A DNA stretch of 38,824 nucleotides from a virus: the IMG/VR virus record IMGVR_UViG_3300043410_000709, positions 1 to 38,824 of that record; one strand, 5' to 3'. Position numbers and translations under genes: made by a program. Numbering within the stretch: position 1 is the first letter of the stretch; each line of letters starts with the position of its first letter. Below are positions 9,794 through 38,824 of the stretch, one piece after another. The notes below the pieces were generated by a model. The model was not told where the DNA came from. It ran no database searches and was given only the letters and a program-made list of their open reading frames with translations.

Positions 9794-9822
9794 ATTCTAA
9801 CAGATTTTACCGGCAGAGTCAA
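9794..9822 (-). promoter_or_regulatory. sigma70 promoter of the UvsW unit
   Basis: TTGACT (9817-9822), 17-bp spacer and TAGAAT (9794-9799) on the minus strand. The -10 box ends exactly 6 bp before the ATG at 9787 and no ribosome-binding site exists, so a leaderless transcript is predicted. The -35 region and following bases (TTGACTCTGC) are identical to those of the gp32 promoter. Confidence 0.85.
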
Positions 9823-10658: not shown

Positions 10659-10664
10659 TAAGGA

Positions 10665-10686
10665 AATAAATATATGAGTATTTAAT
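10665..10686. promoter_or_regulatory. divergent region with two late-promoter-like octamers
   Basis: AATAAATA on the plus strand (10665-10672) lies 22 bp before ATG 10695, and ATTAAATA on the minus strand (10679-10686) lies 20 bp before ATG 10658. Both match the NWTAAATA pattern. The region is very AT-rich, so chance matches are possible. Neither gene has an evident Shine-Dalgarno sequence. Confidence 0.35.
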
Positions 10687-10694
10687 GATATAAC

Positions 10695-11893: not shown

Positions 11894-12582
11894 AAAATTA
11901 CATTATTTGCTTGTCTAAAATTCCAGCATCAATTGAAACTGCAACAAAATTAAAAGATAAGCTATTAGAACTCGGCGTAACAGCAGAATTGTTTGAAGGC
12001 ACGTATGGCAGCGATTCTATCAAAATGATGGAAGAGGAAAACAGAACGATTCACCCCTGGGGTATTAAAGGACCAGACCATCCTATAAGTCCAGAATGGG
12101 TAAATGAGAATGCTAAGGCATTTAGTCCCGGAGTTCGAGGTTGTTTTTATAGCCATTATAGATTATGGCAAAAATGTGTAGAACTCAACGAACCTATCAT
12201 TATATGGGAAGATGATATTGTGATAGCAAGACCATATATTCCTGTAGACTGGGAGGACGTTTTAGTCTTAGCATTAGGTCATCCTACCAAAAGCGGAAAG
12301 TACATGAAATATCTTGAAACACCAGCAGGAGAACCAAAGGCTGAAGATTACTGGCAAGCATCTATGCCAGGATGCTGTGGTTATGCTCTAAAACCACATG
12401 CTGCTAAAAAACTAGTAGATACCTACCAACATACATTTTTACCTGCCGATAACGCTATAAATCAATATCTTGTAAAAATTCAAGTTCATAACTACGTAAT
12501 GGGAATTGCATTAGTTAAGAAAGACGGAAAAAGAAGTTTAACAAGAACAACATTTTGGGATGATTACAATGCCCAGAAGTGA
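11890..12582 (+). CDS. glycosyltransferase family 25-like (LPS-type galactosyltransferase)
   Basis: The 230-aa product has the marks of GT25/LgtB enzymes: an N-terminal YIICLSKIPAS, the SPGVRGCFYSHYRLWQKC block (about residues 80-97, equivalent to the G-C-x-x-SH segment), PIIIWEDDIVIA (about 103-114, the E-D-D metal motif), and a C-terminal LPADNAINQYL (about 181-191). Such enzymes add galactose or glucose to lipooligosaccharide. I choose ATG 11890 (ATGA overlap with the previous gene, GGAGG 10 bases upstream) over a TTG at 11884. In this phage it would act on host surface sugars or a virion glycan. Confidence 0.8.
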   Translation: MKNYIICLSKIPASIETATKLKDKLLELGVTAELFEGTYGSDSIKMMEEENRTIHPWGIKGPDHPISPEWVNENAKAFSPGVRGCFYSHYRLWQKCVELNEPIIIWEDDIVIARPYIPVDWEDVLVLALGHPTKSGKYMKYLETPAGEPKAEDYWQASMPGCCGYALKPHAAKKLVDTYQHTFLPADNAINQYLVKIQVHNYVMGIALVKKDGKRSLTRTTFWDDYNAQK

Positions 12583-13096
12583 TAAAGAAGGAAAGAACGA
12601 AATAGCCGAATGGTGCAGAGAACTCGAAGGCATTAATAAGATTGTTGACATAGGTGCAGGCAGTGGAACTTATGCAAAAATGTTTAGAAAATTAAGACTA
12701 TTCCGTGATGCAACATTAATAGGGATAGAAGCTTGGGAACCTTACATAGAAGAATATGCACTTAAAGAAAGGTACCACGAAGTAATTCTTTCTGATGTTA
12801 GAAAGGTTGATTTTTCAACAATTGCTCCGTTTGACTTAGTGATTATGGGCGACGTATTAGAGCATATAACTAAAGAAGAAGCAATCGAAGTAGTTAATGC
12901 TGTTTCTAAATTTACAAGATACGCTATTATCAGCATTCCTATTATACATTATCCACAAGACGAATACGAAGGCAATCCGTACGAAGTTCACGTTAAAGAT
13001 GATTGGTCGCACGAAGAAGTACTAGCAACATTTTCAAACTTTGAAAAAATGTTTAAAGGCGAACGTATCGGTTGTTATTTGTTAAGATTTAAATGA
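12569..13096 (+). CDS. class I SAM-dependent methyltransferase of glycan cassette
   Basis: The 175-aa protein has a textbook motif I, IVDIGAGSGTYAKMF (about residues 28-42), an acidic ribose-binding strand end LIGIEAWEP (about 53-61), and post-motif VIMGDVLEHI (about 94-103), typical of methyltransferases acting on small molecules or sugars. Likely role: O- or N-methylation of a sugar in the glycan built by its neighbours. It overlaps the GT25-like gene at its start (ATG 12569 preferred to ATG 12560, whose GGG is directly adjacent) and converges with the minus-strand gene at 13082, overlapping by 15 bp with no terminator between. Confidence 0.85.
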   Translation: MPRSDKEGKNEIAEWCRELEGINKIVDIGAGSGTYAKMFRKLRLFRDATLIGIEAWEPYIEEYALKERYHEVILSDVRKVDFSTIAPFDLVIMGDVLEHITKEEAIEVVNAVSKFTRYAIISIPIIHYPQDEYEGNPYEVHVKDDWSHEEVLATFSNFEKMFKGERIGCYLLRFK

Positions 13097-13882
13097 ATAT
13101 GCGTGTGTAGAGACATACGATTTTAAATCCCCAATATACATATTCATCAACTCCCAAGCCCGGCCAGAAGTCCATTCGTCTGTTGTAAATTGATTCCAGG
13201 CAACGTGTTCGTGCCATTCGTCTCTGCCTGTGGGCTCTGCAGGATTCTGCCAATCGTTCATTTCAGTTTTTCCTGCTAACCATGTAATGCAGGGTTCTGT
13301 ACTAATAACTTTTTTACCGTACCAGAACGCTTCTACAGTTATAGCAGAACTTTGAGAAACCACTAAGTCAGCCCAATCAAAGTCTTTCCACAGCGAATCA
13401 TATCTGATGCCTGGCTTGCCTAATTTTCTTCTAATTCTTACATTTGCACCTGGGAATTGTTCGGCCATGTGTTCTGCCCACTTATAGCCTAACTCAGGAG
13501 TCCATACTACAGAAGTCATTTTACTAGGAGCAATTAACACATTCTTTACGTGTTTTACTTTCCAGGGATGTTTTGGCAAATTTAATACACCCCAACGACT
13601 ATATGGTATTGGTCGGTTAACAATGTTTGCCCAACTGTTAACACTATATCTCCAAAAGTTTCTTCGTTTTAGTGGATGGTTTCCAAGGCAACCTCTAGCA
13701 AAATACACAGCTAAGTAATTGTTGGTTAACCAATGCCTAACTGATTCGTGTAATAAATTACCTTCACAGAATATAGGAATATCCTTATTAGCAGCTTTCC
13801 AGTCGTCTAACAGAATTACGTTTTTTAAATTTTCTAAGACCCAAGGCGATGAGCCAAAGTCTGATTTTAAAACCTGAATCAT
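13082..13882 (-). CDS. GT-B-like glycosyltransferase, paralogue B
   Basis: The 266-aa product shares the paralogue pattern: an early GNHPLKRRNFWRYSVN region, NVLIAPSKMTSVVW, a basic PGANVRIRRKLGKP segment, DLVVSQSSAITVEAFWYGKKVIS (nucleotide-sugar-type loop) and the tail NPAEPTGRDEWHEHVAWNQF..DEW..GRAW. I choose the ATG at 13882 (ATGA overlap with the upstream paralogue) rather than the frame's upstream codon at 13912. Probable cytoplasmic sugar transferase; substrate unknown. It is the last gene of a chain of tightly overlapping minus-strand genes running from 17049 to 13082. Confidence 0.7.
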   Translation of the reverse strand: MIQVLKSDFGSSPWVLENLKNVILLDDWKAANKDIPIFCEGNLLHESVRHWLTNNYLAVYFARGCLGNHPLKRRNFWRYSVNSWANIVNRPIPYSRWGVLNLPKHPWKVKHVKNVLIAPSKMTSVVWTPELGYKWAEHMAEQFPGANVRIRRKLGKPGIRYDSLWKDFDWADLVVSQSSAITVEAFWYGKKVISTEPCITWLAGKTEMNDWQNPAEPTGRDEWHEHVAWNQFTTDEWTSGRAWELMNMYIGDLKSYVSTHAYSFKS

Positions 13883-14814
13883 AGAATAAACTTTTTCATA
13901 TGACTCCAGCACTCGCCAGATTTTAATTCATCAAATTTCCAGTGAGACATTGCAAGCCTTTCGATCCACTGTTGTCTATCAAATAGTGAAGGATTTTCAA
14001 TTTGTGAAAAATCTGTATTAGCAATCTCTTTGCATTGGCTGTTATTTGGATCGGAAACAAATACAGGATAGCCTTCAATTGCAGCGCCAACTACTGGGCT
14101 AGAATTATGATTTACAACAGCCCAGCAGTTTTTTAAATCATCAATTAAATTTTCGTTATGGCTTAATTCAACACCGTAATTGAAATTTATTTTACATAAC
14201 GGTTTTCCGGCTTTAAAAATTCGTTTAGTTTCTTTGTCACCGGGGTGTAATCTAATAACAATTGGCCTATTGCTGTGTTTCCTGATTTCAGCAATAGTTC
14301 TTAAAGCCCAATCCTGATTATCTAAATTGCCCATAGACCAACCGCCGTTACGTTGCATACATAACAATATATGATTTCCGTTAGTGCGATAATCTTTTAA
14401 TTGTAAATTAAGATCTTTACTAACTTTTTTCCATCGTTGTGGATCTACAGAAGTATCGCAATAGATTCCAGTACTTGGGAATACACCGTTGAAACTATAA
14501 CGAAGATAATGAAGTCGATTACTAGTATCAGCATATAAAAATAAATTACTGTCAACACCTACTACATATTTAGAATTTTGTAATTGATTCTGTATTACTC
14601 GTGTCCTAAGATCACCGTGCGGTGTTACTACTTGCCCTGGAGCTATCCAACCCTGAATTACAGCAACATCAGATTCTCTAATAGTGTAATCGTTGATGTC
14701 TGTAACTGGGTCTCCTATTGTTCTTGCTCCTTGCGCAAAGAATCGCAAGATATCTATTTTCTCCTGATTCTTTTTATTAGGCACAGATTTATGATAGACC
14801 GCAACAGTTGTCAT
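13879..14814 (-). CDS. GT-B-like glycosyltransferase, paralogue C
   Basis: The 311-aa protein starts MTTVAVYHKSVPNKKNQEK. It has a KSDVAVIQGW-like strand (VAVIQGWIAPGQ), HILLCMQRNGGWSM, RPIVIRLHPGDKET (basic RLHPGD loop), WAVVNHNSSPVVGAAIEGYP (the shared NxSx donor loop) and the family tail IENPSLFDRQQWIERLAMSHW. Together these resemble capsule polysaccharide or KDO transferase-like GT-B domains. The IVIRLHPGD motif parallels IIVRPHPRS of paralogue A, reinforcing paralogy. ATGA overlaps at both ends tie it to paralogues B and D. Substrate unknown; no membrane segments. Confidence 0.75.
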   Translation of the reverse strand: MTTVAVYHKSVPNKKNQEKIDILRFFAQGARTIGDPVTDINDYTIRESDVAVIQGWIAPGQVVTPHGDLRTRVIQNQLQNSKYVVGVDSNLFLYADTSNRLHYLRYSFNGVFPSTGIYCDTSVDPQRWKKVSKDLNLQLKDYRTNGNHILLCMQRNGGWSMGNLDNQDWALRTIAEIRKHSNRPIVIRLHPGDKETKRIFKAGKPLCKINFNYGVELSHNENLIDDLKNCWAVVNHNSSPVVGAAIEGYPVFVSDPNNSQCKEIANTDFSQIENPSLFDRQQWIERLAMSHWKFDELKSGECWSHMKKFIL

Positions 14815-15611
14815 TCTTCTAACATCCTTTTTGCAGTACCATTTCTGAGTTCGTTATTGTGGAATTGTCCGTAAGCTAAATGGCAGGCCCAGGCGTATAC
14901 TTTATCCTTATCTGGATAATACGGGGATTCAATTTGACCTATATCCTGACTGCTTACCGGACCTGCTGCATTACACGGTGCTAATGTAAAAGCAGGGATT
15001 CCGTACAGTACAGATTCTGTTGCAGCCACGCTATTGTACGTTACAAGCGCATGAACATCGTCGTCTAAGGCCTGCTTCAGTGTATTGTGTTCGACACGTT
15101 CTAAGCGTGATTTAGCACGATCTCGAACTATAATTTCTCGGTCAGTAAATTGTTTTAATTTTGCAACAGTCTCTGCTACCCAGGTATCTTTGTCAATACC
15201 ATAGAACTTGCAGGGCTTTTCGTCAGGCGCAGCAACAATGATTTTCCTACCACCCTTCTTCCAGTTTTCAATAGGTAACTGTAATGCTTCCCATCGATCA
15301 GCAGGACGATTAATTATTTCTCCGTGCTGTAAATTATTCTTAACAATCCTATGCCAAACTTTCCAACCGTTGGGGTTTAAGGGATTCTTTTGATTACCAA
15401 GGTAACCAGTGTCCATGTAATAGAAAGTTCTGTTGTCTTCCCAACACTGCTGCATTATTTTATACTTGAGTATTCCTCTAAGTATAATAGGATCAGTACT
15501 GTCTGAGTAGACAAAATCTTCTGTGCGTATCATTCGACAATCGGTTCCTAGTGCAAACCTATTGATGTATTCGTCTTCTCCGCCTTTGCTTAAACAGATC
15601 CAATTATTCAT
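14811..15611 (-). CDS. GT-B-like glycosyltransferase, paralogue D
   Basis: The 266-aa product starts MNNWICLSKGGEDEYINRF. It includes a KIIVAAPDEKPCKFYG segment, the basic REIIVRDRAKSRLERVEHNT region, ALVTYNSVAATESVLYGIP (shared donor-type loop) and tail IESPYYPDKDKVYAWACHLAYGQF..NEL..GTAKRM, a slightly diverged version of the paralogue signature. ATGA overlaps link it to paralogue C downstream and the GT8-like gene upstream. Likely one of several successive transferases in the glycan pathway. Confidence 0.7.
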   Translation of the reverse strand: MNNWICLSKGGEDEYINRFALGTDCRMIRTEDFVYSDSTDPIILRGILKYKIMQQCWEDNRTFYYMDTGYLGNQKNPLNPNGWKVWHRIVKNNLQHGEIINRPADRWEALQLPIENWKKGGRKIIVAAPDEKPCKFYGIDKDTWVAETVAKLKQFTDREIIVRDRAKSRLERVEHNTLKQALDDDVHALVTYNSVAATESVLYGIPAFTLAPCNAAGPVSSQDIGQIESPYYPDKDKVYAWACHLAYGQFHNNELRNGTAKRMLEE

Positions 15612-16285
15612 ATGTTACGCTGTTGACAATACTCTGTAAAGATGCGTTCACGATGCCACTCGTCTCCCATTGGAGTTGTAGCAAATTCGTGAAAGCTAGG
15701 GGTGCCTAATGTATAATGTAAAAGTTTAGCATCGGAATTTGGCCCAAACTCATCCGGTAACCAATTCCATTCAATAGGCAATTCACCTATACGACTATCG
15801 TCTATCCACGAGAAGCGGTGGAGGAAACTGCCTGTGGATTGTTGGATGAATTGGGGAGTAAGTTGCCTGTTAGGAAAGCTACTACAATTCCACAAAATAA
15901 CACTAGACCAATTCTTGCGAGGGTAATCTTCATTCTTTGCTCCTAAATATTTTTCTGTCATTCTTGTTTTGTAGTTGTGTTTAACTACTTGTACGTCTTT
16001 GCTAAAGTCTCTCATCTCCCACAACTTAACAATGTCGTCTCTAACAATCATGTCACCGTCTATAAAGATAGCGTGTCCGCTAAAGTCCATTAGATGTGGA
16101 ACTAAAAATCTACTGTAGATAAATTGATTGCTACCGTCAGTGTGCGTTTCTGTGTAATCCTTAAACAAATTTAAAGCCAACGGAATAATACTAACCGGTC
16201 GACTAGCGTGTCTAATAATACTATTTGCACACACGTGAAATGCTATTGCTTCTCGTGGGTCGTATCCTACAAATATTGGAATCAT
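15608..16285 (-). CDS. glycosyltransferase family 8-like (GT-A)
   Basis: The 225-aa protein opens MIPIFVGYDPREAIAFHVCANSI (written here in part), the start typical of glycogenin/galactosyltransferase-like GT8 enzymes. The metal-binding DxD lies in HAIFIDGDMIV (about residues 71-81) and a late WNWLPDEFGP plus LLHYTLGTPSF (His ligand) completes the fold. GT8 enzymes are retaining transferases using UDP-glucose or UDP-galactose. It overlaps its neighbours by ATGA at both ends. Likely cytoplasmic; acceptor unknown. Confidence 0.82.
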   Translation of the reverse strand: MIPIFVGYDPREAIAFHVCANSIIRHASRPVSIIPLALNLFKDYTETHTDGSNQFIYSRFLVPHLMDFSGHAIFIDGDMIVRDDIVKLWEMRDFSKDVQVVKHNYKTRMTEKYLGAKNEDYPRKNWSSVILWNCSSFPNRQLTPQFIQQSTGSFLHRFSWIDDSRIGELPIEWNWLPDEFGPNSDAKLLHYTLGTPSFHEFATTPMGDEWHRERIFTEYCQQRNI

Positions 16286-17049
16286 TTGCGCTCAATGTCC
16301 TCTTCGACACACTCTAATCCGTACTGGATTTCAACAATCCTAACAGGACTATCATAAGGGTTAGTTAATTGATGCCATTCGCCGACTGGCACTCTGTATT
16401 GTTCGTGTGGGGCAAGTTCAGTAGTTGGAAGGGCATAGCCACCAGCCATCATGCTGTTAACATTGGCTCTGCCATCGCTAACAATCCAATACTCTGCTCT
16501 GTGATTATGGCGTTGCATACTTAAACTGCAACCGGGATTAACAGTTAATTCTTTGACCTTCATTCCTTGCACTTCGTGTAATACACGATAGTATCCCCAA
16601 GGGCGTTCAGTCTTAGGTGCTTTCCACTCTTGCAAAATCCAAGAACTAGAATTCTTTTTATCTTCGCCTCCTACACCAAAGGCAAATTCTAGATGTAACA
16701 TTTCATCTAGTAAGTCCATTTCAGGGATGTTGTCTTTTGTCCTATCGCCACCGTTGGCAAATACTATTTGTGCAGAAGGTCTAATTGCCCTTACTTTTTT
16801 AATAGCATCTTTTGCACTATTGTCGCTATCGTCAAAGTTAATAACTCTGTCGACATTATGCAAGGCCGCAATGATAGTTGCACGTTCTTCCCAGGACATA
16901 AATGCTTGTCCTTTCTTTCTACGTAACCATTCGTCTGAGTTTACTCCGACTATTAGTGAATCACCTAATTCCCTAGCTGCGTTTATATAGGCTATGTGCC
17001 CAGAATGAAGGGGATCGAAACCCCCTGTGATTAGTACAATGCGTTTCAT
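16282..17049 (-). CDS. cytidylyltransferase-cupin fusion (nucleotidyltransferase plus mannose-6-P isomerase type II-like)
   Basis: The 255-aa protein has two domains. Residues 1-137 are a nucleotidyltransferase: GGFDPLHSGH (9-18) is the HxGH motif of the HldE/TagD group and VFANGGDR (96-103) is its later substrate loop. Residues 144-255 are a cupin of the phosphomannose isomerase/GDP-mannose pyrophosphorylase C-terminal type: ERPWGYYRVL, NPGCSLSMQRHNHRAEYWIVSDGRA (Gln/His/His/Glu metal ligands, split here at MQRHNHRAEYW) and GEWHQLTN. It could activate a sugar phosphate as CDP- or ADP-sugar and isomerise or epimerise it. It is the first gene of the minus-strand glycan operon and has a late-type promoter 5 bp before its ATG. 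The fusion itself is unusual in my experience. Confidence 0.8.
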   Translation of the reverse strand: MKRIVLITGGFDPLHSGHIAYINAARELGDSLIVGVNSDEWLRRKKGQAFMSWEERATIIAALHNVDRVINFDDSDNSAKDAIKKVRAIRPSAQIVFANGGDRTKDNIPEMDLLDEMLHLEFAFGVGGEDKKNSSSWILQEWKAPKTERPWGYYRVLHEVQGMKVKELTVNPGCSLSMQRHNHRAEYWIVSDGRANVNSMMAGGYALPTTELAPHEQYRVPVGEWHQLTNPYDSPVRIVEIQYGLECVEEDIERK

Positions 17050-17054
17050 GCAGA

Positions 17055-17062
17055 TATTTATC
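17055..17062 (-). promoter_or_regulatory. late-type promoter octamer GATAAATA with 5-bp spacer to ATG
   Basis: GATAAATA on the minus strand is followed by TCTGC and then the ATG at 17049. In T4 late promoters the octamer covers -13 to -6, so +1 would be the A of the ATG. The octamer lies inside a near-palindrome GCAGATA-TT-TATCTGC (17050-17065). No Shine-Dalgarno sequence is present. Confidence 0.6.
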
Positions 17063-17081
17063 TGCGCATATTACTGTATTT

Positions 17082-18047
17082 TTATAAATGAGCCTGCCAA
17101 TAATGAGAATTCTTAATCCAGTTATAGTAGATTTCAAAACCTTCGTCGACGTCAACTTTTGGATTAAAATTAAAATCTCTTCGAGCTTTAGTAATGTCTA
17201 ATGCTCCCCTACTAGGGAAATCAGCATCTTTATCTCGAACTTCTATTTTACCAGAACCGGCTAACTTAACAGCAAGTTCGGCAGCAGATAGCAATGTTTT
17301 GCTGTGGCTCTTAGTAATGTTGTAGGTGTTGTTAGCAGCCTTGTCTGATAGAGTGGCTGCAACAAAACCTTCGGCTGCATCGTCAACATAAGTGAAGTCT
17401 AATGTTTCGTTACGGCCGTTTACTTTGAGAGTTTCTCCTCGCATTGCTGTGAGCAAGAATTTTGAAATGACGCGGTCTTCCACGTCGAGTGGACCATATA
17501 CAGCAGAGGGACGTATAATAGTATGCTCAATACCATGCTTACGAGAGTAATCTTTAACAAGCCATTCTCCTGCTAATTTAAGAATGCCATATTGCCCTTG
17601 CGGACGACAAATAGCATCTTCAGTTACAAAATCTTCAAAGTCGCCGTATACCATGCTTGAACTAGCATAGGTAAATCTTTTCACACCGTGTTTAGCAGCA
17701 GCTTCTAATAATACAAGAAGTCCTGTGCTCATAACAGTGCTGCCTAACACTGGATTAGCGTTAACAACTTTTTGTCTTGGGAAACTAGCAAGATGAATAA
17801 TAGTATCTATCTTGTTATGCTTTATAACATGGTTTACAGTAGCTTCTTCACAGATGTCACTGTTGTAACAAGGAATATTGCCGATTATTTGTTTGCGCTC
17901 ATTAATAAGATAGTCAATTTCAGATTGCGGAATGATTCCGTAATTTGTACAATTGTCATAAATTACAACATTGTGGTTTAACTGAATTAACTTACGAACG
18001 ATGTTATGGCCAATTAAGCCCAATCCACCTGTAACTAAAATGTTCAT
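17082..18047 (-). CDS. NAD-dependent nucleotide-sugar epimerase/dehydratase (extended SDR)
   Basis: The 321-aa product starts MNILVTGGLGLIGHNIV, the TGGxGxIG dinucleotide-binding motif of extended short-chain dehydrogenases. It continues with IIHLASFPRQKV, a catalytic Ser region (TYASSSMVYGD, about residues 125-135), YGILKLAGE (catalytic Tyr-x3-Lys, about 153-161), RPSAVYGPLD and DFTYVDDAAEGF. Such enzymes (UDP-glucose 4-epimerase and relatives) make the nucleotide sugars used by transferases. It overlaps the upstream uvsY-like gene by ATGA, so it is attached to the recombination operon rather than to the glycan operon's own promoter. Confidence 0.9.
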   Translation of the reverse strand: MNILVTGGLGLIGHNIVRKLIQLNHNVVIYDNCTNYGIIPQSEIDYLINERKQIIGNIPCYNSDICEEATVNHVIKHNKIDTIIHLASFPRQKVVNANPVLGSTVMSTGLLVLLEAAAKHGVKRFTYASSSMVYGDFEDFVTEDAICRPQGQYGILKLAGEWLVKDYSRKHGIEHTIIRPSAVYGPLDVEDRVISKFLLTAMRGETLKVNGRNETLDFTYVDDAAEGFVAATLSDKAANNTYNITKSHSKTLLSAAELAVKLAGSGKIEVRDKDADFPSRGALDITKARRDFNFNPKVDVDEGFEIYYNWIKNSHYWQAHL

Positions 18048-28993: not shown

Positions 28994-30082
28994 TTATGGT
29001 CCCGATCCTGGTACTAGAGTTTTTTGGGTAGCTTCAGTGTTTGAATTGCCACCATTGTTTTTAGGGAATGCTGCTCCAACAATACCGCCGACTGTATTTA
29101 CAATTCCAGAAACTGCTGCCGGACTAGTAATTAATCCTGTAAGTTCTGCCCTAATTCCTGCACCACTCAATTTACCGATATTTTTAGCTGTATTAACTGC
29201 TTTAATTGCTGTTCCTAAGAATCCACCGACACTATCAAATGCTGCACCGCTAGCAATGTCACCGAATACACTTTCAACGCCGTCTAGAACGCCGCCCTCG
29301 CCGAACACGTTAGCAACGCCGCCGCCAGCAACAGTTAACGGGCTAGGCACACTGTCATAATAAAGAGTTGCAAATCCCTTCGGCGTGCCTTGTTTAACTT
29401 CACCTGCTGAATAAACCACAGATTCGTACTCAACGCCCATTGTCATTTCGTTGAAGTCACTAGCTGAATAATCAACTCCGCCGTGTGACCAGTTTGTGAT
29501 TTTAGGATTAACCAAGGTGTATCCAACAAATCTACGACGACTCATTGTATAGATACTAATAGATTTAAAGAAGTCCGCTGACTTTCCTGCCTTATCTAAA
29601 CCGTATCTAAATGCATCTCTACTTTCACCCGACTGCCTTAGGTTAGTTTTAGAGAATGCTAGCTCTGGATTTAATCTATCTTGTACGTAAGTGCTCATGT
29701 ATAATGCCCACATAGCATTCATAATGCCCGCACTATCGTCTCTAAATGTCATAGACAAGCCTTCATATTGAAAGTTCTTGTAAATGATGTGTTTTCTGTT
29801 GTATTGATTCTTGGTTACTGAATCAAATTTATATTTTGGTAAATCAGTACTTTTGATTAAGTACCCAACTTCGTCGGCGTGTCTGTTAGTAAAGACATTT
29901 GACGTTAAAACAGATTTGTCAATTTCAAACCTGACATAGAACATAAACTTGGTTCTAGGAGCAAGTCTGTAATAGTTAGGTAAGAATATCTTTGAAGCGT
30001 GGCGCCAATCGGCTACACCGCCCTTGGGGTTTGTTAATCCGCTACCTACGCCGCTGAGGAATCTTGTGAATTTATCTGCCAT
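28994..30082 (-). CDS. baseplate tail-tube initiator-like protein (gp54/gp48 type)
   Basis: The 362-aa product has the tube-protein-like domain found in gp19/gp54/gp48: LAPRTKFMFYVRFEID (about residues 41-56), EVGYLIKSTDLPKYKFDS (about 71-88), IIYKNFQYEGLSMTFRDDSAG (about 99-119, shown in shortened form as YKNFQYEGLSMTFRDD). The C-terminal third is Gly/Ala/Val-rich and hydrophobic, like gp54. T4 gp54 is 320 aa and starts tail-tube polymerisation on the baseplate. I prefer gp54 but gp48 cannot be excluded. A late octamer (CATAAATA) lies 4 bp before the ATG, right after a strong terminator. Confidence 0.65.
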   Translation of the reverse strand: MADKFTRFLSGVGSGLTNPKGGVADWRHASKIFLPNYYRLAPRTKFMFYVRFEIDKSVLTSNVFTNRHADEVGYLIKSTDLPKYKFDSVTKNQYNRKHIIYKNFQYEGLSMTFRDDSAGIMNAMWALYMSTYVQDRLNPELAFSKTNLRQSGESRDAFRYGLDKAGKSADFFKSISIYTMSRRRFVGYTLVNPKITNWSHGGVDYSASDFNEMTMGVEYESVVYSAGEVKQGTPKGFATLYYDSVPSPLTVAGGGVANVFGEGGVLDGVESVFGDIASGAAFDSVGGFLGTAIKAVNTAKNIGKLSGAGIRAELTGLITSPAAVSGIVNTVGGIVGAAFPKNNGGNSNTEATQKTLVPGSGP

Positions 30083-30144: not shown

Positions 30145-30777
30145 TTAACTGCGGCCTGTTACTGCTTCGCCGATTGTTCTACCAACCAATGCACCAACAC
30201 CACGCTCAATACCAGTACCGTTAGCACCAGCAAATTGAACTGCGTTATCGTATGTGATTGATAATGCAACAGTCATTGGCTCGTTTGTACCGTAGTTAGC
30301 TTCACCGTAGTCTGCACTCTTTAAGAAGCAGCCGTATAGTTCCCACTTTTCTAGTACGCTTGGCTCTAAAGCACCGTTACCACCGTCTAACACTTCAATG
30401 TTAGTTTGGAATTTATAGTCAATACCAGAACGTGCAGAAGCTTGTTCCATGAAGTCAAATTGCTTCTGGATTTGCTGTCCGACTAAACGCTGGATTTGAC
30501 CGTTAGCGTCATCTCTTAGGTTGATAGTAATATCTTCCCAAGCAGGCTTTCCAGCTAGCTTTACTTTCGAGTTGTAAATGTCAATGGCCATTTCTTCGAA
30601 AGTTACAACTGGACGCTTAACGTCAGCAACTTGCTTAGTTAGTTCAGTACTAGCTTCAACACCAAAGCCTAAAAGTACCACTCTAAAGCGATACTTGAGC
30701 TTAGGCATTAGCAGAGCAGTACCCGAGTTACCGCCTGCTGGCGGAACTGAAATCCTATTTAATGAGGTTAATGCCAT
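30145..30777 (-). CDS. 19: tail tube protein gp19
   Basis: The 210-aa protein carries the typical start MALTSLNRISVPPAGG, the tube strand pattern KYRFRVVLLGFG (about residues 27-38), VADVKRPVVTFEEMAIDIYNS (about 49-69, shortened as VKRPVVTFEEMAIDIYNS), WEDITINLRDDANGQ (about 79-93) and a late EVLDG and WELYGCFLKSADYGE (about 144-158). T4 gp19 is 163 aa; aquatic relatives are often near 200. It polymerises as the inner tube of the contractile tail. GGAGAG lies upstream of the ATG as a normal ribosome site; it follows gp18 immediately, and a terminator follows its stop. Confidence 0.93.
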   Translation of the reverse strand: MALTSLNRISVPPAGGNSGTALLMPKLKYRFRVVLLGFGVEASTELTKQVADVKRPVVTFEEMAIDIYNSKVKLAGKPAWEDITINLRDDANGQIQRLVGQQIQKQFDFMEQASARSGIDYKFQTNIEVLDGGNGALEPSVLEKWELYGCFLKSADYGEANYGTNEPMTVALSITYDNAVQFAGANGTGIERGVGALVGRTIGEAVTGRS

Positions 30778-30779
30778 TT

Positions 30780-33700
30780 TTAAATCTCTCCTGTATTCTT
30801 GATACGCAATGGAATGTAGATGAATTCAACTGCTTTAGTTGGTTCAATCGCAATGTCTACATACAATTCATTACGATCAATTCTAGAGTTAGTGTTGTTA
30901 GACTCATCGCATACAACTGCAAAGTCGTACAACGCTCTTAAACCTACCAACTCTAGTAATAGACTTTCTACAGCACCCTTGATCTCATCACGTGTGATCT
31001 TGTCGTTTGGTTCGAAGATGTATGGACGAGCTAGTTTGTTCAACTGGCTACGTAGATATACAACTAAACGAGCTACGTTAATACGATCTAATGCGCTAGC
31101 ATTTCTTGCACGAGTCTTCTGACCGTATGCAACTAAACCTACTCCAACAAAGAATGGAATTGGGTTAATCTTCTGATCATACAATGTATCACGTTGACCT
31201 TCATTCAATGCAACTGACTGGAATTCGCCACTGTCTGCATCAATGTAACCAACTGCTGTTGCGTTAGTAATACCGCCACGACGTGTACCAGCTGGAGCAA
31301 ACCAAGGATAAGAAACCTGATCGCTTAAAGCAATTGTACGTAACATCATGTGTGATGCTGGAACAACTGCGTTTGCACCGCCTAGGTCTGTTGTAAATCC
31401 GTTTGGATAGTAAACAGCACTATATTCGTCATAGCTAACAATACCTGCATCGCCGTTGTCTAATGCGCCATTTGCGTTTGTACCGTAAGCCAACAACGAT
31501 GTTGAGTCGCTTGGTAAACGTAATGGCGTATCACCAACTACGAATGCTGTTAAACCTCTGTCTAGGTTTAAGTTAATTAAGTTGCTGAATGCTTCTGGAT
31601 AACCAGGTGCAGCAATTAGGTTGAAGTTTCTACGCTCTTCATCTCTTGCTTCTGCACTTGTATCAATTGCACTCTTAAGTTTTTGTACAACTAATGCACG
31701 TTGAGCTTTACGTCCAAAGCTACCAGAACCGTCTTCGTTGTTTGGAGAAGCTGTTACCCAACGATCTGGGTTGTATAAGCTCTGTCCTTCACCGGAAACA
31801 TATGCGTCACCTGCTGGTGAATTAGATGAGTCAAATCTTGCGTTGTCAGCTGCTAGATCAACATAGTTGTTAGCATAACGCTTAACGTTACCACCGCTTC
31901 TACGTAGGTTCCATAGTAACATGCCTTTTGGATATAACACTGGATCTGGAGCATCTGTATCTAAGAAGTTGCTTAACGCTAGTTCAGCAATTGTTGCATC
32001 GCCGGCTGCACCGTCGGTATTCCAACGTGCATCAGCAAATAAAACACCTTCTTCGGATGTTTGATCGGTTTTGTCGATCAATTGCCATTCCATCATGTCG
32101 CCGTTCCAGCGGTACATTGTTGGGAAGTTTTCTAAGTCTGCTGTGCTAATCCATAGCTGACCGTTAATTTCATATGTGTCATCTGGTTGACTTGCGGATA
32201 CCACTGGGCCACCTGCATCAGTGTCAGGGAACGCAGAAGCGTGTCTATATCCTACCCAAGTGTTACCGTTATGGTACATAATGTCAACTTCACCAAAGTT
32301 AGGATTGTACCATAGCTGCCCGTCTTGTGCTTCTGCTAATGGAGCATCGTTAGACGCTGTAAATCCGTCAACTGCTAGTGGTTCCCAGTTACTTGCTAGG
32401 TATAGATCTGTGTCTAACTCATAGAAGTTTGCTGTTGTGTTAACATTAAACAATGCAGCAATTGTATCACCGGTGTTGTCTGTTAATCTAATGTCACCAC
32501 CAGTTTTGTGAACTAGTTGAATTCTGTTATCAGCAGTAACTGAAGCTTCAACGTGGTGTAAGCCTAATCCGTTAATTGCTGCTGCAAATAAATCAGCATC
32601 TGTAGCTTCTTCGTCGGCAGCAAATGAAACTTCAACATTGCCGTGTAATGCTAATGCGCCTTTATCAAATTCGTTGATAAAGAATGTATTGTTTACAGCA
32701 AATGTACCTGCTGTTACAATTGCAGAAGTAATAACAGTATTACCTGCTGCTGCTCTTCTCCAAGCTCTAAACGAAGCTGTTGCTGGATTTGCAGGAGTAT
32801 TTGCTTCGGTAGAATTGCTCTGAACAAATAGTGAATCAACAGCAATGTTTACACCACCGCCACTGCGGTCTAGATAATATAAAGCTGCGTGTGTTGAATC
32901 ATAAATTGGAGCACTGTATTCTAACCATGATTTTGTAGCAGAATTCCAACGCTTAACTCTCCAACGAGCACCCTGATTTGGTTCAGTTGTCTTGATCCAT
33001 ACAGAGCCTGTTGGACGAGGTGTTGGTCCTGTAGACTTGTAGTTAGGAACGTTTGTATGAGGAGTTTGCTGTAATGCTGGGCAATAGTATGTTCCAGCAG
33101 TTAATCCTAGTGCTGCTAAGTTAGCAGTATCTGTGTCGATATTTACAGCACCATCAGCATCTGCACCGTTAGATTCAGATGTTTGATCTGCATAAATGTA
33201 TAGATATTTGCCGTTTGTACTAGTCTTTGCAATAATACCGGTAATGTTTAAACCGTTAATTGTATCAGCAACATCACTTAATGTATCGTTCTCTGCAACA
33301 GATACCGGAGTACTGTTAACATACATTGTACCTGCAGAAGCTAACGGAACTGCTACTTCAATTTTGCCGCCGGAAATTGTAGGGTTGCTTAAAGCCCACT
33401 CATTGCTACCAACTTCTACCCAAGCTGCTTGTGCTCCTAAGAATACCTGATCAATTTTATAGTAAACTTTAGCAGCTTCGTAGTTAGTGTTACCTGTTTC
33501 TAATACAACAGCATAATCACCGATAACACCAACGGAATCCTTTGGTCTGTTATTAACAATTTTAGATGTGTTGTCGTTTGTTAGAACGATAGGAGTCTTG
33601 GATGCAAATTTCTGTCCACCAGTTGTAGTTGCAGAAGCTGCGTTCCACTCTTGGATACCCCAAGCTGAAGACTGAGTATCAACCCACCAAGTACCGTCTG

Positions 33701-34091
33701 TTGGTTCTGCTCCCGGGGCGGTTGTTTGAGGTTCAAGTTCGTTTAAGTCAACGTCGGCTCTCATAATGAAAGCAGAGTTACTTACGCCTAAGAAGCTGTA
33801 TGCTGCTAGTAGACCGTACTCATTTCGTTCGCTACCGTGAATCGGTGTTGAACTTGCTGTCTTTTCAAAGAATGGAACACCAAAGGTATCAACCAATTCT
33901 CTTTGACTTGTGACTTTAAACACTTTGCCTGCATTGGCTTGTGTTGTTCCAGCAGCAGTGCCTGTGCCTGCTGCATTAGATTTATTCTCAGCGGTTGCAA
34001 TTACGATTAACGGAGTAGTGCCAGGTTCAGCTGGTGTATAAAAACTCTCGTCGATTACCGTAACTTGTACGCCTGGTGATGTTAGTGCCAT
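30780..34091 (-). CDS. 18: tail sheath protein gp18, greatly enlarged by an insertion
   Basis: The 1,103-aa product starts MALTSPGVQVTVIDESFYT, the usual sheath N-terminus, and ends in the sheath C-terminal domain (INVARLVVYLRSQLNKLARP, then RDEIKGAVESLL and LYVDIAIEPTKAVEFIYIPL). T4 gp18 is 659 aa, so about 450 residues are extra. These lie in the middle (about residues 120-680) and include four Trp-rich units of the form GxLW...W: DGTWWVDTQSSAW (132-144), TGSVWIKTT (361-369) with RWRVKRWNSATKSW, DGQLWYNPN (590-598) with YHNGNTWV, and NGQLWIST (643-650) with YRWNGDMMEW. They probably form surface-exposed beta modules on the contracted or extended sheath. AGGAG precedes the ATG and a late promoter lies 31 bp upstream. 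Confidence 0.9.
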   Translation of the reverse strand: MALTSPGVQVTVIDESFYTPAEPGTTPLIVIATAENKSNAAGTGTAAGTTQANAGKVFKVTSQRELVDTFGVPFFEKTASSTPIHGSERNEYGLLAAYSFLGVSNSAFIMRADVDLNELEPQTTAPGAEPTDGTWWVDTQSSAWGIQEWNAASATTTGGQKFASKTPIVLTNDNTSKIVNNRPKDSVGVIGDYAVVLETGNTNYEAAKVYYKIDQVFLGAQAAWVEVGSNEWALSNPTISGGKIEVAVPLASAGTMYVNSTPVSVAENDTLSDVADTINGLNITGIIAKTSTNGKYLYIYADQTSESNGADADGAVNIDTDTANLAALGLTAGTYYCPALQQTPHTNVPNYKSTGPTPRPTGSVWIKTTEPNQGARWRVKRWNSATKSWLEYSAPIYDSTHAALYYLDRSGGGVNIAVDSLFVQSNSTEANTPANPATASFRAWRRAAAGNTVITSAIVTAGTFAVNNTFFINEFDKGALALHGNVEVSFAADEEATDADLFAAAINGLGLHHVEASVTADNRIQLVHKTGGDIRLTDNTGDTIAALFNVNTTANFYELDTDLYLASNWEPLAVDGFTASNDAPLAEAQDGQLWYNPNFGEVDIMYHNGNTWVGYRHASAFPDTDAGGPVVSASQPDDTYEINGQLWISTADLENFPTMYRWNGDMMEWQLIDKTDQTSEEGVLFADARWNTDGAAGDATIAELALSNFLDTDAPDPVLYPKGMLLWNLRRSGGNVKRYANNYVDLAADNARFDSSNSPAGDAYVSGEGQSLYNPDRWVTASPNNEDGSGSFGRKAQRALVVQKLKSAIDTSAEARDEERRNFNLIAAPGYPEAFSNLINLNLDRGLTAFVVGDTPLRLPSDSTSLLAYGTNANGALDNGDAGIVSYDEYSAVYYPNGFTTDLGGANAVVPASHMMLRTIALSDQVSYPWFAPAGTRRGGITNATAVGYIDADSGEFQSVALNEGQRDTLYDQKINPIPFFVGVGLVAYGQKTRARNASALDRINVARLVVYLRSQLNKLARPYIFEPNDKITRDEIKGAVESLLLELVGLRALYDFAVVCDESNNTNSRIDRNELYVDIAIEPTKAVEFIYIPLRIKNTGEI

Positions 34092-34195: not shown

Positions 34196-34531
34196 ATGAG
34201 ACCACTTTGTAAGTGCGGGCAACGACCCAAAGCTGTAAATTACAAGAAAAATGGAAGGACTTATTATAGGAGTCTTTGTGAGATCTGCCTAGCTCAGGGA
34301 TTATACGCTGGAATTCCTAGATGGGCCAGGGCAGGATATAAGATAAAGAATCAGTGCGACAAATGCGGATTTAAAAGTCCGCATCTGGAAGTATTCAAAG
34401 TATTCCATGTAGACGGCGATTTAAATAATTGCCGTGCTACCAATCTAAAAACAGTTTGCGCTAACTGTGCTCAAATACTAGGTAAAGAAGGTATTACTTG
34501 GCGACAAGGAGATCTTGTTGCTGATTACTGA
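34196..34531 (+). CDS. HNH-like double zinc-ribbon protein (111 aa)
   Basis: The 111-aa protein has two pairs of zinc-ligand-like motifs: C5-x-C7 with CEIC (28-31), and CDKC (54-57) with CANC (88-91). Between the second pairs lies FHVDGDLNNC with NLKTVC, the H-x-D/N...N pattern of HNH endonucleases (like T4 gp49, where the core is also flanked by Cys pairs). It could be a small HNH nuclease or a DNA-binding zinc protein; the catalytic residues are only partly convincing. From memory a homologue sits beside gp18 in other aquatic T4-like phages. It converges with the gp1 gene, overlapping by 38 bp. Confidence 0.7.
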   Translation: MRPLCKCGQRPKAVNYKKNGRTYYRSLCEICLAQGLYAGIPRWARAGYKIKNQCDKCGFKSPHLEVFKVFHVDGDLNNCRATNLKTVCANCAQILGKEGITWRQGDLVADY

Positions 34532-35207: not shown

Positions 35208-35966
35208 TTAACCAATTACAAATGTGTAGCCCTGGCCGCCGGATACTAGAGTTTCTAGTTCTTTAGTTAGACGCTCAATATCTGCAACTGCTTCGCTCTT
35301 CATAGCAGCACCGTTTAAGCTACTTCCGCCCTGTGGTCCTGCAAGTTGTGTAAACTTTTCACGGGCTTGTCCTAGCATCATTTTACAGTTTGCAAGGGTG
35401 TAATCTTTGATCCAAATACCTGCATACGTGTCTTCGATAATAGCAAAGTCAGGTTTTGTATTGTAAACCCAAAGTAAAATCTCTTCACCGCCTCTAGGAC
35501 GCTGTTGAATCATTAACTTACGGCTTTGTGGTTGCCAGGTAAAGTTAATGAAACTACCAAACATTTTGCCCACTAATTCCTGATATTGTGAAAACAATTC
35601 ATAAGTTAGTAGACCACCCATGTTTGTACTGCTTAAAAGATAGGTGTTTGTATAGGCTAAATTAAACGGTTCAAAAACTGTGCCGCCTGACCCATTGCCT
35701 GTACGTGAACCAATGCTACGTCTAAAAATCTGTCGAACTTGTTGGATTTCTTTAGGAAGAATATACTCATTTTGGTCCGCTTGTAACGTCAAAAATGCGT
35801 AACTTTCTTCTACAGCATTATCACTACGCTGGCGAAAAACTGCTAACGCTCTGTTTAGGGCAGTTTCGTAATGTGTAGGGTCTAATTCTACATCAATCAT
35901 GCCATCACCTAGCATGGTTTTGCAGTAGTCGTACACGGCTTGTTTAGATTGATCAATTTGGCTCAT
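35208..35966 (-). CDS. 13: neck protein gp13 (head-tail connector)
   Basis: The 252-aa protein resembles gp13 of aquatic T4-like phages: a helical N-terminus AVYDYCKTMLGDGMIDVEL with ALNRALAVFRQRSDNAVEESY, then a beta region LTLQADQNEYILPKEIQQV and a long middle beta part with FTWQPQSRKLMIQQRPRGGEEILL, and a helical end DYTLANCKMMLGQAREKF. T4 gp13 is 309 aa and, with gp14, closes the portal and receives the tail. Its promoter (GATAAATA) is 5 bp before the ATG with no ribosome site. In T4 genes 13 and 14 are co-directional; here they are divergent. Confidence 0.75.
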   Translation of the reverse strand: MSQIDQSKQAVYDYCKTMLGDGMIDVELDPTHYETALNRALAVFRQRSDNAVEESYAFLTLQADQNEYILPKEIQQVRQIFRRSIGSRTGNGSGGTVFEPFNLAYTNTYLLSSTNMGGLLTYELFSQYQELVGKMFGSFINFTWQPQSRKLMIQQRPRGGEEILLWVYNTKPDFAIIEDTYAGIWIKDYTLANCKMMLGQAREKFTQLAGPQGGSSLNGAAMKSEAVADIERLTKELETLVSGGQGYTFVIG

Positions 35967-35971
35967 AATGT

Positions 35972-35979
35972 TATTTATC
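35972..35979 (-). promoter_or_regulatory. late-type promoter GATAAATA for gp13, 5 bp before ATG
   Basis: GATAAATA then ACATT then the ATG at 35966. Only 5 bp separate it from the divergent plus-strand octamer at 35985-35992. Confidence 0.65.
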
Positions 35980-35984
35980 GTACC

Positions 35985-35992
35985 GCTAAATA
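35985..35992 (+). promoter_or_regulatory. late-type promoter GCTAAATA for gp14, 7 bp before ATG
   Basis: GCTAAATA then TACTACT then ATG 36000. Two bases longer than the usual 5-bp spacing. No ribosome site before the ATG. Confidence 0.6.
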
Positions 35993-35999
35993 TACTACT

Positions 36000-37379
36000 A
36001 TGCCAAGATTAAGCCTTTACCGCCCGCAAAAGGGCAACGACTTTAAATTCATCGACAAAGCTGTTTGGGAAATGTTCCAAATTGGCGGGACTGATGTGTT
36101 TGTTCACAAGTACCTAGGACCCGGTGCTGCGGTTCAAGGCGACACTCCTACCACTCCTACATATAACACCACAGATCCGTTCCAAATACAGGATATGTTG
36201 TTTTTAGAAAATCGTGATAGAAAATACGATTCGGATGTTTACTTGTTACGTGGGGTTTACAGCTTAACAGATATCGACTTTAACCTAAGTCAGTTTGGTT
36301 TATTTTTGCAAAACGACACAATTTTTATAACTTTCCACATTAATGACACCGTAGAAAAAATTGGTAGAAAATTAATGAGTGGTGATGTTATTGAATTACC
36401 GCACCTAAAAGACGAGTATGCTTACAATGATTTACAGTATGCTTTAAAAAGATATTATGTAATTGAAGAAGTTAACCGTGCTGCGGAAGGATTCTCTGTA
36501 ACCTGGTATCCACACCTTTACAGAGCAAAGTGTAAACCGCTAGTAGATAGCCAAGAATTTAAAGATATTCTTGATCAGGTACAAACAGATGCAAATGGTG
36601 ATCCAGATCCAAACGGAACAACGTTAAGAGATATTATGTCAACGTATGAAAAAGAAATGCAGATTACTCAAGCAGTTCTTGATCAGGCCGAGGCTGATGC
36701 ACCAAAGAGTGGCTATAGCACTGTAAATCAATACATTCTGCAAAAGGATAGTAACGGCGATGTAGAACTAGTTACGGCTGACAGTTCAGTAATAGATGCA
36801 TCTGTTCAAACACAAGCAACAGACAGCGGTGGAAATCCATTAGTGGATAGCAACGGTGATCCGATTTATGTTGGAGCTACAGCATCAACTATCTATCAAA
36901 GCCCCGCATACGACGGTCCAATAAACGGAGAAGGCGACGGTGTTCCTCCTAATGGTGCGCCGTTTACTGCTGGGATTGCATTCCCATTACAACCGACCGA
37001 AGGCCAATACCACTTACGTACAGATTATTTGCCAAGGCGATTATTTAGATTCAACGGCAGTAGATGGATAAAGATAGAAGATGTGACTAGAATGACAATG
37101 AGCAACAACGAAGGTTACGATCAATCACTCAATAGAGGAACCTGGTCTTCGGCTACTGAATATGCAGTGAATGATCGAGTACAGTTCGGCGGTATCGAAT
37201 ACATTGCTAGATCTACTAACACTAACAGTAGTCCAGAAACCAACCCAACTGTATGGGGTGAAATTAGAATGACTCACAAGACTTCGTTTATTAATAACAA
37301 TAATTCTAATGTTATTAACGGGCATACTGTGAAAGAAAAACAGAGCTTGAGTAAAGCTCTTAGACCAGAGGCAGATTAA
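36000..37379 (+). CDS. 14: neck protein gp14 with carbohydrate-binding-like C-terminal insertions
   Basis: The 459-aa protein has a gp14-type N-terminal region (about residues 15-190): FKFIDKAVWEMFQIGG, QIQDMLFLENRDRKYDSDV, DIDFNLSQFGLFLQNDTIF and VTWYPHLYRAKCKPLVDSQEF, and a familiar C-terminus VKEKQSLSKALRPEAD. T4 gp14 is 256 aa, so about 200 residues are inserted. The insert has GQYHLRTDYLPRRLFRFNGSRW (335-356; GxLW-like unit) and GTWSSATEYAVNDRVQFGG with IEYIARSTN (380-407), ending PTVWGEI (416-422). This matches the W...Y..ND.V...G..Y.A...W pattern of CBM5/12 chitin-binding modules. The start is ATG 36000 because the longer frame runs into the divergent gp13 gene and promoter. Confidence 0.72.
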   Translation: MPRLSLYRPQKGNDFKFIDKAVWEMFQIGGTDVFVHKYLGPGAAVQGDTPTTPTYNTTDPFQIQDMLFLENRDRKYDSDVYLLRGVYSLTDIDFNLSQFGLFLQNDTIFITFHINDTVEKIGRKLMSGDVIELPHLKDEYAYNDLQYALKRYYVIEEVNRAAEGFSVTWYPHLYRAKCKPLVDSQEFKDILDQVQTDANGDPDPNGTTLRDIMSTYEKEMQITQAVLDQAEADAPKSGYSTVNQYILQKDSNGDVELVTADSSVIDASVQTQATDSGGNPLVDSNGDPIYVGATASTIYQSPAYDGPINGEGDGVPPNGAPFTAGIAFPLQPTEGQYHLRTDYLPRRLFRFNGSRWIKIEDVTRMTMSNNEGYDQSLNRGTWSSATEYAVNDRVQFGGIEYIARSTNTNSSPETNPTVWGEIRMTHKTSFINNNNSNVINGHTVKEKQSLSKALRPEAD

Positions 37380-37381
37380 TA

Positions 37382-38824
37382 ATGGATTTCTTTTATGATG
37401 GACAGATTAGACGCTATGTAACACAGTTTATGCGTGTGTTTATAGGGTTTAAGTACCAAGCAGGCGACGGAACTCTTAAAACAGTTCCTGTAATGTATGG
37501 TGACATGACTAGACAAGTGGCTAGTATTATTAGAGAAAACTCTGAGAATAAAATGCCAACTGTGCCAAGGATCAGTTGTTATATCACAGGACTCGAATTG
37601 GATACTAACAGGCTTGCAGATGCTAGTTTTGTTAGCAAATTAAATATCAGAGAACGTGCCTGGGAAGAAACCAACGACGGAATAGAATATAAGAATTATC
37701 AAGGCGGCGGTTATACAGTTGAACGTTTAATGCCAACTCCTTTTAAACTTAAGATGAAAGCAGACATATGGACTAGTAACACAGATCAAAAGTTACAGCT
37801 AACAGAGCAGATCCTGGTGTTGTTTAATCCTAGTCTCGAAATTCAGACCACAGACAATTATATTGATTGGACTAGCCTTAGCGTATTAAATCTTTCCTCA
37901 TTGAACTTTAGCTCTAGAACTATTCCTGTGGGAACTGAAAGCGAGATAGACATCTGTTCTTTAGAATTCGACATGCCTATCTACATCAGTCCTCCTACTA
38001 AAGTTAAGAAACTCGGAGTTATTCGTAACCTTGTTATGAATGTATTCTCAGAGTCAGGCGACGTTATGAATATCGACGACTTAGTATATGGCGGCGACCC
38101 TAACGCAAAATTACCGAACGTTGAAGGTAACTGGAGAGTGCTGCTACTCAAGAGTGCAAACGGCGAATCAAATGACTTTGATTTATCCGTAGTAAGCCCC
38201 GGAGAAGTAATCGAAGCCACAGGACTAAGTGCTCCTTCTAAAATGGGAGACCGTGTAGACTGGGCCAAGGTCTTAGACTTGTATGGCGGATATGTTTCGG
38301 GAGTTAGCAAAATTTATTTCTTACAACCAGACGGAAGTGAGATAGGTGGTACCTTTACAGTGAACGAACTTGACCCTTCGTTTATGTTGGTTACAATTGA
38401 AGACAAGCCATCTAATACAGTTATTGTTAGTGAAACATACCCTGCAGGTCGAACAACAATAGATGCAATTGTTGACCCTTACAAGTTTAATCCTAAGCGT
38501 CCGAATCAGGAAACAACAGATCAAACAGTTGTTGCAGGCACTAGATTCCTAGTATTAGATGACGTTAATAACAGTTCTAATGTTGGAACAACTATTGATA
38601 GACCGTCGTATTACAATTATGACGGGCCAGACGCTTGGAAAAACAGTAATAACTCTGATCCGGTAATCCGTGCTAATACTATTATCGAGTGGAACGGTAG
38701 TGCCTGGATTGATTTATTACCAGAGTGGGTATTATCTACATATCCTGTTGGCAGTGGAATTGTTTATAGTACTGGGCAAATAGTAATTTATGATGGTGTT
38801 GCTTATAAAGCCATTGCTGATATT
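37382..38824 (+). CDS. 15: tail sheath stabiliser/completion protein gp15 with insertions (cut by right edge)
   Basis: The frame is open from ATG 37382 (two bases after the gp14 stop) to the window edge, 481 codons. The first 230 residues match gp15 (T4 272 aa): FFYDGQIRRYVTQFMRVFIG, ...MPTVPRISCYITGLELD, GGYTVERLMPTPFKLKMKADIW, TEQILVLFNPSLEIQTTDN and LEFDMPIYISPPTK. gp15 caps the finished tail and joins it to the neck. After the gp15-like part come long extra regions with IIEWNGSAWIDL (a GxLW/W-type unit) and at the edge YPVGSGIVYSTGQIVIYD with GVAYKAI, a CBM5/12-like repeat start. The 3' end lies outside the window. Confidence 0.8.
   Translation, partial: MDFFYDGQIRRYVTQFMRVFIGFKYQAGDGTLKTVPVMYGDMTRQVASIIRENSENKMPTVPRISCYITGLELDTNRLADASFVSKLNIRERAWEETNDGIEYKNYQGGGYTVERLMPTPFKLKMKADIWTSNTDQKLQLTEQILVLFNPSLEIQTTDNYIDWTSLSVLNLSSLNFSSRTIPVGTESEIDICSLEFDMPIYISPPTKVKKLGVIRNLVMNVFSESGDVMNIDDLVYGGDPNAKLPNVEGNWRVLLLKSANGESNDFDLSVVSPGEVIEATGLSAPSKMGDRVDWAKVLDLYGGYVSGVSKIYFLQPDGSEIGGTFTVNELDPSFMLVTIEDKPSNTVIVSETYPAGRTTIDAIVDPYKFNPKRPNQETTDQTVVAGTRFLVLDDVNNSSNVGTTIDRPSYYNYDGPDAWKNSNNSDPVIRANTIIEWNGSAWIDLLPEWVLSTYPVGSGIVYSTGQIVIYDGVAYKAIADI

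Follow-up and report, generated by a model that had tools for sequence, protein, structure and literature searches.

The virus contig IMGVR_UViG_3300043410_000709 from IMG/VR (positions 1 to 38,824 of the record; this whole stretch of 38,824 nucleotides is referred to as the window) encodes a gp18-type tail sheath protein of 1103 residues. This protein probably represents a multidomain contractile sheath (i.e., type 3 in the scheme of Evseev et al., which occurs in a broad clade of jumbo myophages), in which an outward arm combines a constant framework of small tryptophan (Trp) units with exchangeable domains of the flagellin/FliD D2 (FD) type. At least three domains are present, and the extra ones (i.e., two FD-type domains, referred to as IN1 and IN2, and several Trp units, referred to as U1 to U4, U1b and U2b) are inserted in the core chain, as in type 3 sheaths.

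Identity of the sheath gene

The sheath gene, its two core parts and the adjoining tube gene are located as follows:

30780..34091, minus strand: gp18-type tail sheath gene, open reading frame (ORF) of 1103 residues, identified by PHROG, Pfam and fold
33738..34091, minus strand: N-terminal core part, residues 1-118 (mean column entropy 1.22 bits and occupancy 0.99 in 59 relatives)
30783..31721, minus strand: C-terminal core part, residues 791-1103 (PF17482 at 999-1097; entropy 1.24 bits)
30145..30777, minus strand: tail tube protein adjoining the sheath (phrog_4542, E=4.5e-48)

The protein matched the tail sheath family phrog_10581 (E = 1.2e-222), and its C-terminal domain scored well over the cut-off of PF17482 (56 vs. 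26.9 bits; E=4.6e-15). In the full-length AlphaFold model (mean pLDDT of 87.6), the predicted split alpha/beta core was superposable on solved sheaths, with the best VIA match (Z 36.4) covering 359 residues at a root-mean-square deviation of 3.4 to 9f4a. Many further solved sheaths scored around Z 30 (about 350-366 modelled residues aligned across 20-1103), and it is only these roughly 350 residues of the window sheath that superpose. By likeness to the sheath of phage phAPEC6 (PMC7247149), the protein would assemble into a contractile sheath. Its closest named relatives were those of Sinorhizobium phage Phosso (43%) and Atu_ph07 (40%), followed by PA5oct-like Pseudomonas phages (40%) and SCTP-2 (33%), and set against the genomes of these phages the 38.8 kb window is a fragment.

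Trp motifs in the insertion

Non-core sequence began near residue 119 and extended to residue 680 or beyond (about 560 extra residues), between conserved core parts. An initial annotation, made from the letters alone, had recognised this insertion but estimated its size at about 450 residues, which is too small. The four Trp-rich motifs that it had reported in the gene were all present, i.e., DGTWW (residues 132-136), TGSVW (361-365), DGQLW (590-594) and NGQLW (643-647), and such G-x-hydrophobic-W motifs were clearly more frequent in the 572-residue insert than expected by shuffling (4 vs. 0.41; P = 0.0002). The further Trp-containing or aromatic strands that were said to follow each motif were likewise seen as strands in the AlphaFold model. 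In 59 divergent sheaths, the strand-1 positions were occupied by Trp in 100% (W136), 97% (W365), 98% (W594) and 100% (W647) of cases, and W612 and W669 in 98% and 97%, respectively, so that the Trp residues of these units (97-100%) match those of the core in conservation.

Trp units as diverged repeats

The Trp units of the window sheath were delimited as follows, with strands taken from the model:

33582..33728, minus strand: U1 (DGTWW), residues 122-170, strands 135-138/146-150/161-165; hidden Markov model (HMM) matches in 83/84 sheaths
33402..33542, minus strand: U1b (GDYAVV...WVEVGS), residues 184-230, strands 193-196/207-213/223-226; HMM match to U4
32892..33053, minus strand: U2 (TGSVW), residues 347-400, strands 364-367/376-383/388-394; HMM cross-match with U4 at 16.5-18.6 bits
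32751..32840, minus strand: U2b, first two strands, residues 418-447, strands 421-424 and 440-446
32364..32396, minus strand: U2b, third strand with W569, residues 566-576, strand 569-571
32232..32360, minus strand: U3 (DGQLW), residues 578-620, strands 593-595/604-607/612-614; HMM match to U1
32052..32210, minus strand: U4 (NGQLW), residues 628-680, with W647 and W669, strands 646-649/658-663/668-671
31722..31952, minus strand: possible divergent unit U5 (GMLLWN...RWVT), residues 714-790, strands 725-728/736-740/777-780; by pattern only

Since HMMs specific to one unit recognised other units above controls, the Trp units are diverged repeats of one small three-stranded beta unit, present in at least six copies. 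The U3 HMM scored more than 8 bits on U1 in 54 sheaths (maximum 30.4), and the U2 HMM did so on U4 in 14 (maximum 16.5). In the other directions, the U4 HMM matched U2 in seven sheaths (maximum 18.6 bits) and the U1 HMM matched U4 in eight (maximum 14.9 bits), while reversed and shuffled controls, fivefold in number, reached 7.7 bits at most. The U1b HMM scored up to 15.9 bits on U4 vs. a null maximum of 5.0. The initial annotation had thus found U1 to U4 but counted too few units, as HMM cross-matching added U1b and U2b. In the 59 relatives, W224 of U1b was Trp in 89%, and W569 of U2b was Trp in 75% and aromatic in 100%. U2b was unbroken in relatives without IN2 (e.g., TGSVYVGYDVATGAQELRRWSGTQWESLSY), but in the window protein its hairpin is interrupted by IN2. 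The AlphaFold model predicted a three-stranded meander for every unit. U5 was not retained as a further main unit, for it gave no HMM cross-match despite its similar strand layout.

That the four motifs are independent Trp-rich loops, alike by chance or composition, is very improbable: unit-to-unit hhalign with low-diversity profiles of close relatives (Neff ~2.5) gave no support for repeats (probabilities below 13%) and a diverse sequence set was needed, but the motif count (P as above), the cross-matching of diverse HMMs in dozens of sheaths (with a null never above 8 bits) and the common predicted three-strand layout all speak against it. Diversity mattered for modelling as well, in that U3 and U4 were of low confidence when AlphaFold was given the insertion alone and were resolved once the full-length protein was modelled from a diverse alignment.

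The U4 profile found no counterpart among solved structures (the best match, T4 RNase H at E = 0.84, was taken as chance) and no Pfam family (scattered Kelch-like matches at E 0.03 or worse), and it matched several virion PHROGs weakly.

Flagellin/FliD-type domains

Structure prediction and module search, as proposed in the initial annotation, bore out a modular beta insertion in a split core, but also revealed two flagellin/FliD domains that had been overlooked:

33072..33398, minus strand: IN1, flagellin/FliD D2-type domain, residues 232-340 (VIA Z 9.2 over 88 residues, 2.5 Å to FliD 5h5v)
32397..32744, minus strand: IN2, flagellin/FliD D2-type domain in the U2b hairpin, residues 450-565 (VIA Z 9.6 over 96 residues, 3.0 Å to Vibrio flagellin 9n8h)

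Judged by these VIA matches of the model, both domains (about 110 residues each) are predicted to adopt the FD fold. Down to Z 4, all entries of their VIA list were flagellar proteins or proteins of phages, among them a baseplate protein of Bas63 and T7-like nozzles (Z 5-6); antibodies that appeared among the Foldseek matches were discounted as noise of the generic beta-sandwich kind. Mean occupancy in the 59 relatives was 0.35 for IN1 and 0.54 for IN2. Against Flagellin_IN (PF07196), the window sheath scored 15.4-18.1 bits (IN1 at E=0.003), i.e., under the curated cut-off of 22.7, and it was therefore not assigned to this family, a cut-off that one relative (L148) does pass with 24.7 bits.

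Fixed units and variable domains across relatives

In essentially all of the 83 sheaths compared (785-1367 aa), U1, U2, U3 and U4 occurred once each and in constant order, the lone exception being a sheath (L142) with only a marginal U2. In contrast to these constant units, detected IN domains numbered from 0 (26 of the 83 sheaths) to 3 per sheath, as counted by HMM detection, which may miss diverged copies. They occupied the stretch from U1 to U2 or that from U2 to U3 and, in one case, that from U3 to U4. Median sheath length rose from 858 over 955 and 1103 to 1288 aa for 0, 1, 2 and 3 copies, respectively (r = 0.83 between copy number and length), and the core part stayed constant at 481-566 aa. 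The comparison of sheath lengths in relatives that the initial annotation had called for thus shows length tracking IN copy number. On the core tree, at least 4, 5 and 1 changes were required at the three IN slots, and at least 10 for the combined architecture.

Because the units are constant and the IN domains variable, decoration seems to be the part of the flagellin-like domains, with the Trp units as a fixed scaffold. This reverses the roles in the initial annotation, where the Trp units themselves had been taken for the decoration.

Two sheaths, of 1131 aa (L196) and 1292 aa (L139), carry some 280-400 extra residues without IN HMM matches (in the U1-U2 and the U2-U3 interval, respectively), which are possibly other inserted domains or may be IN copies too diverged for detection.

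Presence in the virion

The tail of the related phage phAPEC6 contains 25 hexameric rings, i.e., 150 sheath copies, and its 97 kDa sheath was covered by mass-spectrometric peptides for 68% (PMC7247149). Residues outside U1-U4 make up about 55% of the 887-aa phAPEC6 homologue (L104; arithmetic from unit positions). Since the coverage exceeds this share, the insertion is kept in the mature sheath at least in this relative, and its loss through processing, which had been named as a finding that would overturn the proposal, is unlikely. The earlier picture of a many-copy sheath coating the tail with small beta modules agrees with the 150 copies, and the modules presumably lie on the outer face.

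Trp hairpins in the neck proteins gp14 and gp15

On the plus strand, a gp14-like protein (35943-37379, with a probable start at ATG 36000) and the gp15 tail sheath stabiliser (37382-38824; PF16724, E = 1.7e-24) carry the following features:

36999..37079, plus strand: Trp hairpin in the gp14-like neck protein (EGQYHLRTDYLPRRLFRFNGSRWIKIE), conserved in gp14 relatives
37140..37256, plus strand: CBM5/12-like module near the C-terminal end of the gp14-like protein (PF02839, 21.9-24.7 bits; cut-off 26.2)
38672..38707, plus strand: Trp hairpin in gp15 (ANTIIEWNGSAW), conserved in gp15 relatives
38753..38815, plus strand: CBM5/12-like module in gp15, cut by the window end (PF02839, 20.5 bits; cut-off 26.2)

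The GDLW-like units that the initial annotation had seen in both proteins do contain a Trp motif, but this is a hairpin of the YRWNG type rather than GDLW. As for the proposed family shared by sheath, gp14 and gp15, the hhalign alignment of the U4 profile fell exactly on the gp14 hairpin (probability 11%), but reciprocal HMMs between sheath units and the gp14/gp15 hairpins scored at noise level. The kinship is therefore suggestive at the level of the sequence motif only. The CBM5/12-like modules (E = 2e-5 to 5e-4, under the PF02839 cut-off) lie beside conserved Trp hairpins, and their sporadic occurrence among gp14/gp15 relatives suggests mobile carbohydrate-binding-like add-ons at the neck.

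Proposed sheath plan and alternative explanations

In the plan that we consider probable, the core (residues 1-118 and roughly 690-1103) would provide the ring and tube contacts and serve assembly and contraction, and the non-core arm would be directed away from the tube, as it is in multidomain sheaths that have been solved or modelled (PMC9230969, PMC9700779). Judging from their invariance, the near-invariant Trp residues may act as packing residues that hold the units together. The Trp units would then most likely form a scaffold with permissive insertion sites, situated between units or in a unit's hairpin turn, at which FD-type domains could come and go while the core remains undisturbed. 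These exchangeable domains would make up the outer surface and most likely provide lateral contacts that stabilise the very long tail, with weak adhesion perhaps as a second role.

Several points weigh against this plan. The relatives were collected by sheath queries of this very family, so that the universality of the units holds within the family, and the outgroup sheath of XacN1 (714 aa) is without Trp units. Moreover, the core tree came from a quick search with long branches, the boundaries of U1b and U2b were set after the model had been seen, and a sequence search found no experimental structure of a sheath of this clade.

A strong contender, to which we nevertheless give somewhat less than an even chance, is that the insertion is mainly mechanical, making lateral contacts or contacts from ring to ring that determine how stiff and stable the tail is, with no host contact. 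Near-invariant units next to variable yet folded domains are in line with this, and, as Evseev et al. cite for phage 812, neighbouring sheath subunits touch via their domains (PMC9230969). However, IN domains are dispensable, since 26 of the 83 sheaths have none detected, and the extra domains of T4 gp18 are considered non-essential (PMC9230969).

A wider claim is tentative and on balance unlikely, namely that virion proteins of jumbo phages employ the Trp unit, a repeated three-stranded module not described before, as a socket. In the sheath, the unit would build a conserved outer framework, and flagellin-type display domains would be exchanged via several permissive sites, its own beta-turn among them.

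Small beta units rich in aromatic residues are similar to carbohydrate-binding modules in their size and number of strands, and the Trp units might accordingly be glycan-contact modules that coat the tail and aid adhesion to host or matrix polysaccharide. The weak CBM5/12-like matches beside the Trp hairpins of gp14 and gp15 hint at some indirect help for this idea, and adhesion was also proposed for extra sheath domains by Evseev et al. 2022 (PMC9230969). We nevertheless consider it improbable. Unlike binding sites tuned to a host, the Trp residues hardly vary between phages of Agrobacterium, Pseudomonas, Klebsiella, Vibrio and Salicola. Moreover, neither PF02839 nor any other CBM was matched by a member of U4, and the CBM5/12-like modules are sporadic among the relatives of the neck proteins. 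Because the Trp residues are invariant across phages of such different hosts, a role in folding is favoured over glycan contact, and the glycan function given in the initial annotation is left without support.

Less probable still is that the hairy whiskers of related jumbo phages are anchored to the outer domains: Atu_ph07 bears such whiskers and tail appendages were suggested by Evseev et al. (PMC9230969), but the same sheath is present in every ring, fibres occur at three levels only, and the whiskers of Atu_ph07 are mostly on the capsid.

Neighbouring genes

Beside the 210-aa tube protein, positions 28994-30082 encode a second tube-like paralogue of 362 aa, which is weakly similar to the tail tube family (phrog_4542, E=1.8e-9) and extended at its C-terminus; RaK2 likewise has several genes annotated as tube. 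Between the sheath gene and a P-loop kinase-like gene, a small cysteine-rich ORF (34196-34531) runs on the plus strand, against the direction of its neighbours, and has a zinc-finger/HNH-type look by eye, with no family match. A sugar-metabolism cluster (9819-18047) contains GT2- and GT8-like glycosyltransferases, a methyltransferase, a cytidylyltransferase fused to a mannose-6-phosphate isomerase/cupin domain and, by eye, a sugar epimerase-like protein. Finally, a protein with a carbamoyltransferase N-terminal domain (597-1541) matched PF02543 (106 bits) and phrog_1601 (Nol-like carbamoyltransferase).

Comparison with known systems

The sheath type, the multidomain sheaths of jumbo phages (Evseev 2022) and the FliD-like sheath domain (Adele 2025) are already known. 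Evseev et al. 2022 modelled the sheaths of Atu_ph07, RaK2 and SCTP-2 as type 3, listed that of Atu_ph07 with 5+ domains, and proposed adhesion, appendage anchoring or stability as roles of the extra domains (PMC9230969). These sheaths (1086 aa in Atu_ph07) belong to the same family as the window sheath, with a core, several extra domains and all four Trp units. In the available part of that paper, however, the extra domains are mostly described as Ig-like, and Trp-unit repeats or variable flagellin-type insertions are not described (PMC9230969). Nor were the Trp-unit repeats or slot-wise gain and loss found to be described in the open-licence literature searched, and the inner plan of the window sheath is apparently undescribed.

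If true, a fixed scaffold with exchangeable flagella-type domains would be a testable plan for the outer surface of the largest contractile tails, and would account for the spread in sheath length (about 785 to 1367 aa) at an unchanged core. It would also reveal natural domain-addition sites in a sheath, and it names conserved Trp residues for structural work or mutants.

With T4 gp18 (659 aa), the window sheath shares the core fold, the C-terminal sequence (E=1e-25) and the placement of extras between N- and C-terminal core parts, but its non-core part has no sequence match there and superposes little (359/649 residues aligned for the KP1-variant homologue). The CBM5/12 family (PF02839) resembles the C-terminal modules of gp14 and gp15, under its cut-off, and not sheath U4.

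A FliD-like beta-sandwich has been reported in sheaths, nozzles and auxiliary capsid proteins (Adele paper, 2025; PMC12846349), and the FD domain was named in the crassvirus atlas, where gp36 has one (PMC10172136). The beta-sandwich plus helix fold of IN1 and IN2 is also that of type 2 sheaths (Adele, phiTE 9khy and Sf14; PMC12846349), crassvirus gp36 FD (PMC10172136) and the T7-like nozzle. A type 2 sheath, however, has one FliD-like copy, whereas the family of the window sheath has 0-3 detected copies at several sites of a Trp-unit framework, one of them in the hairpin of a unit.
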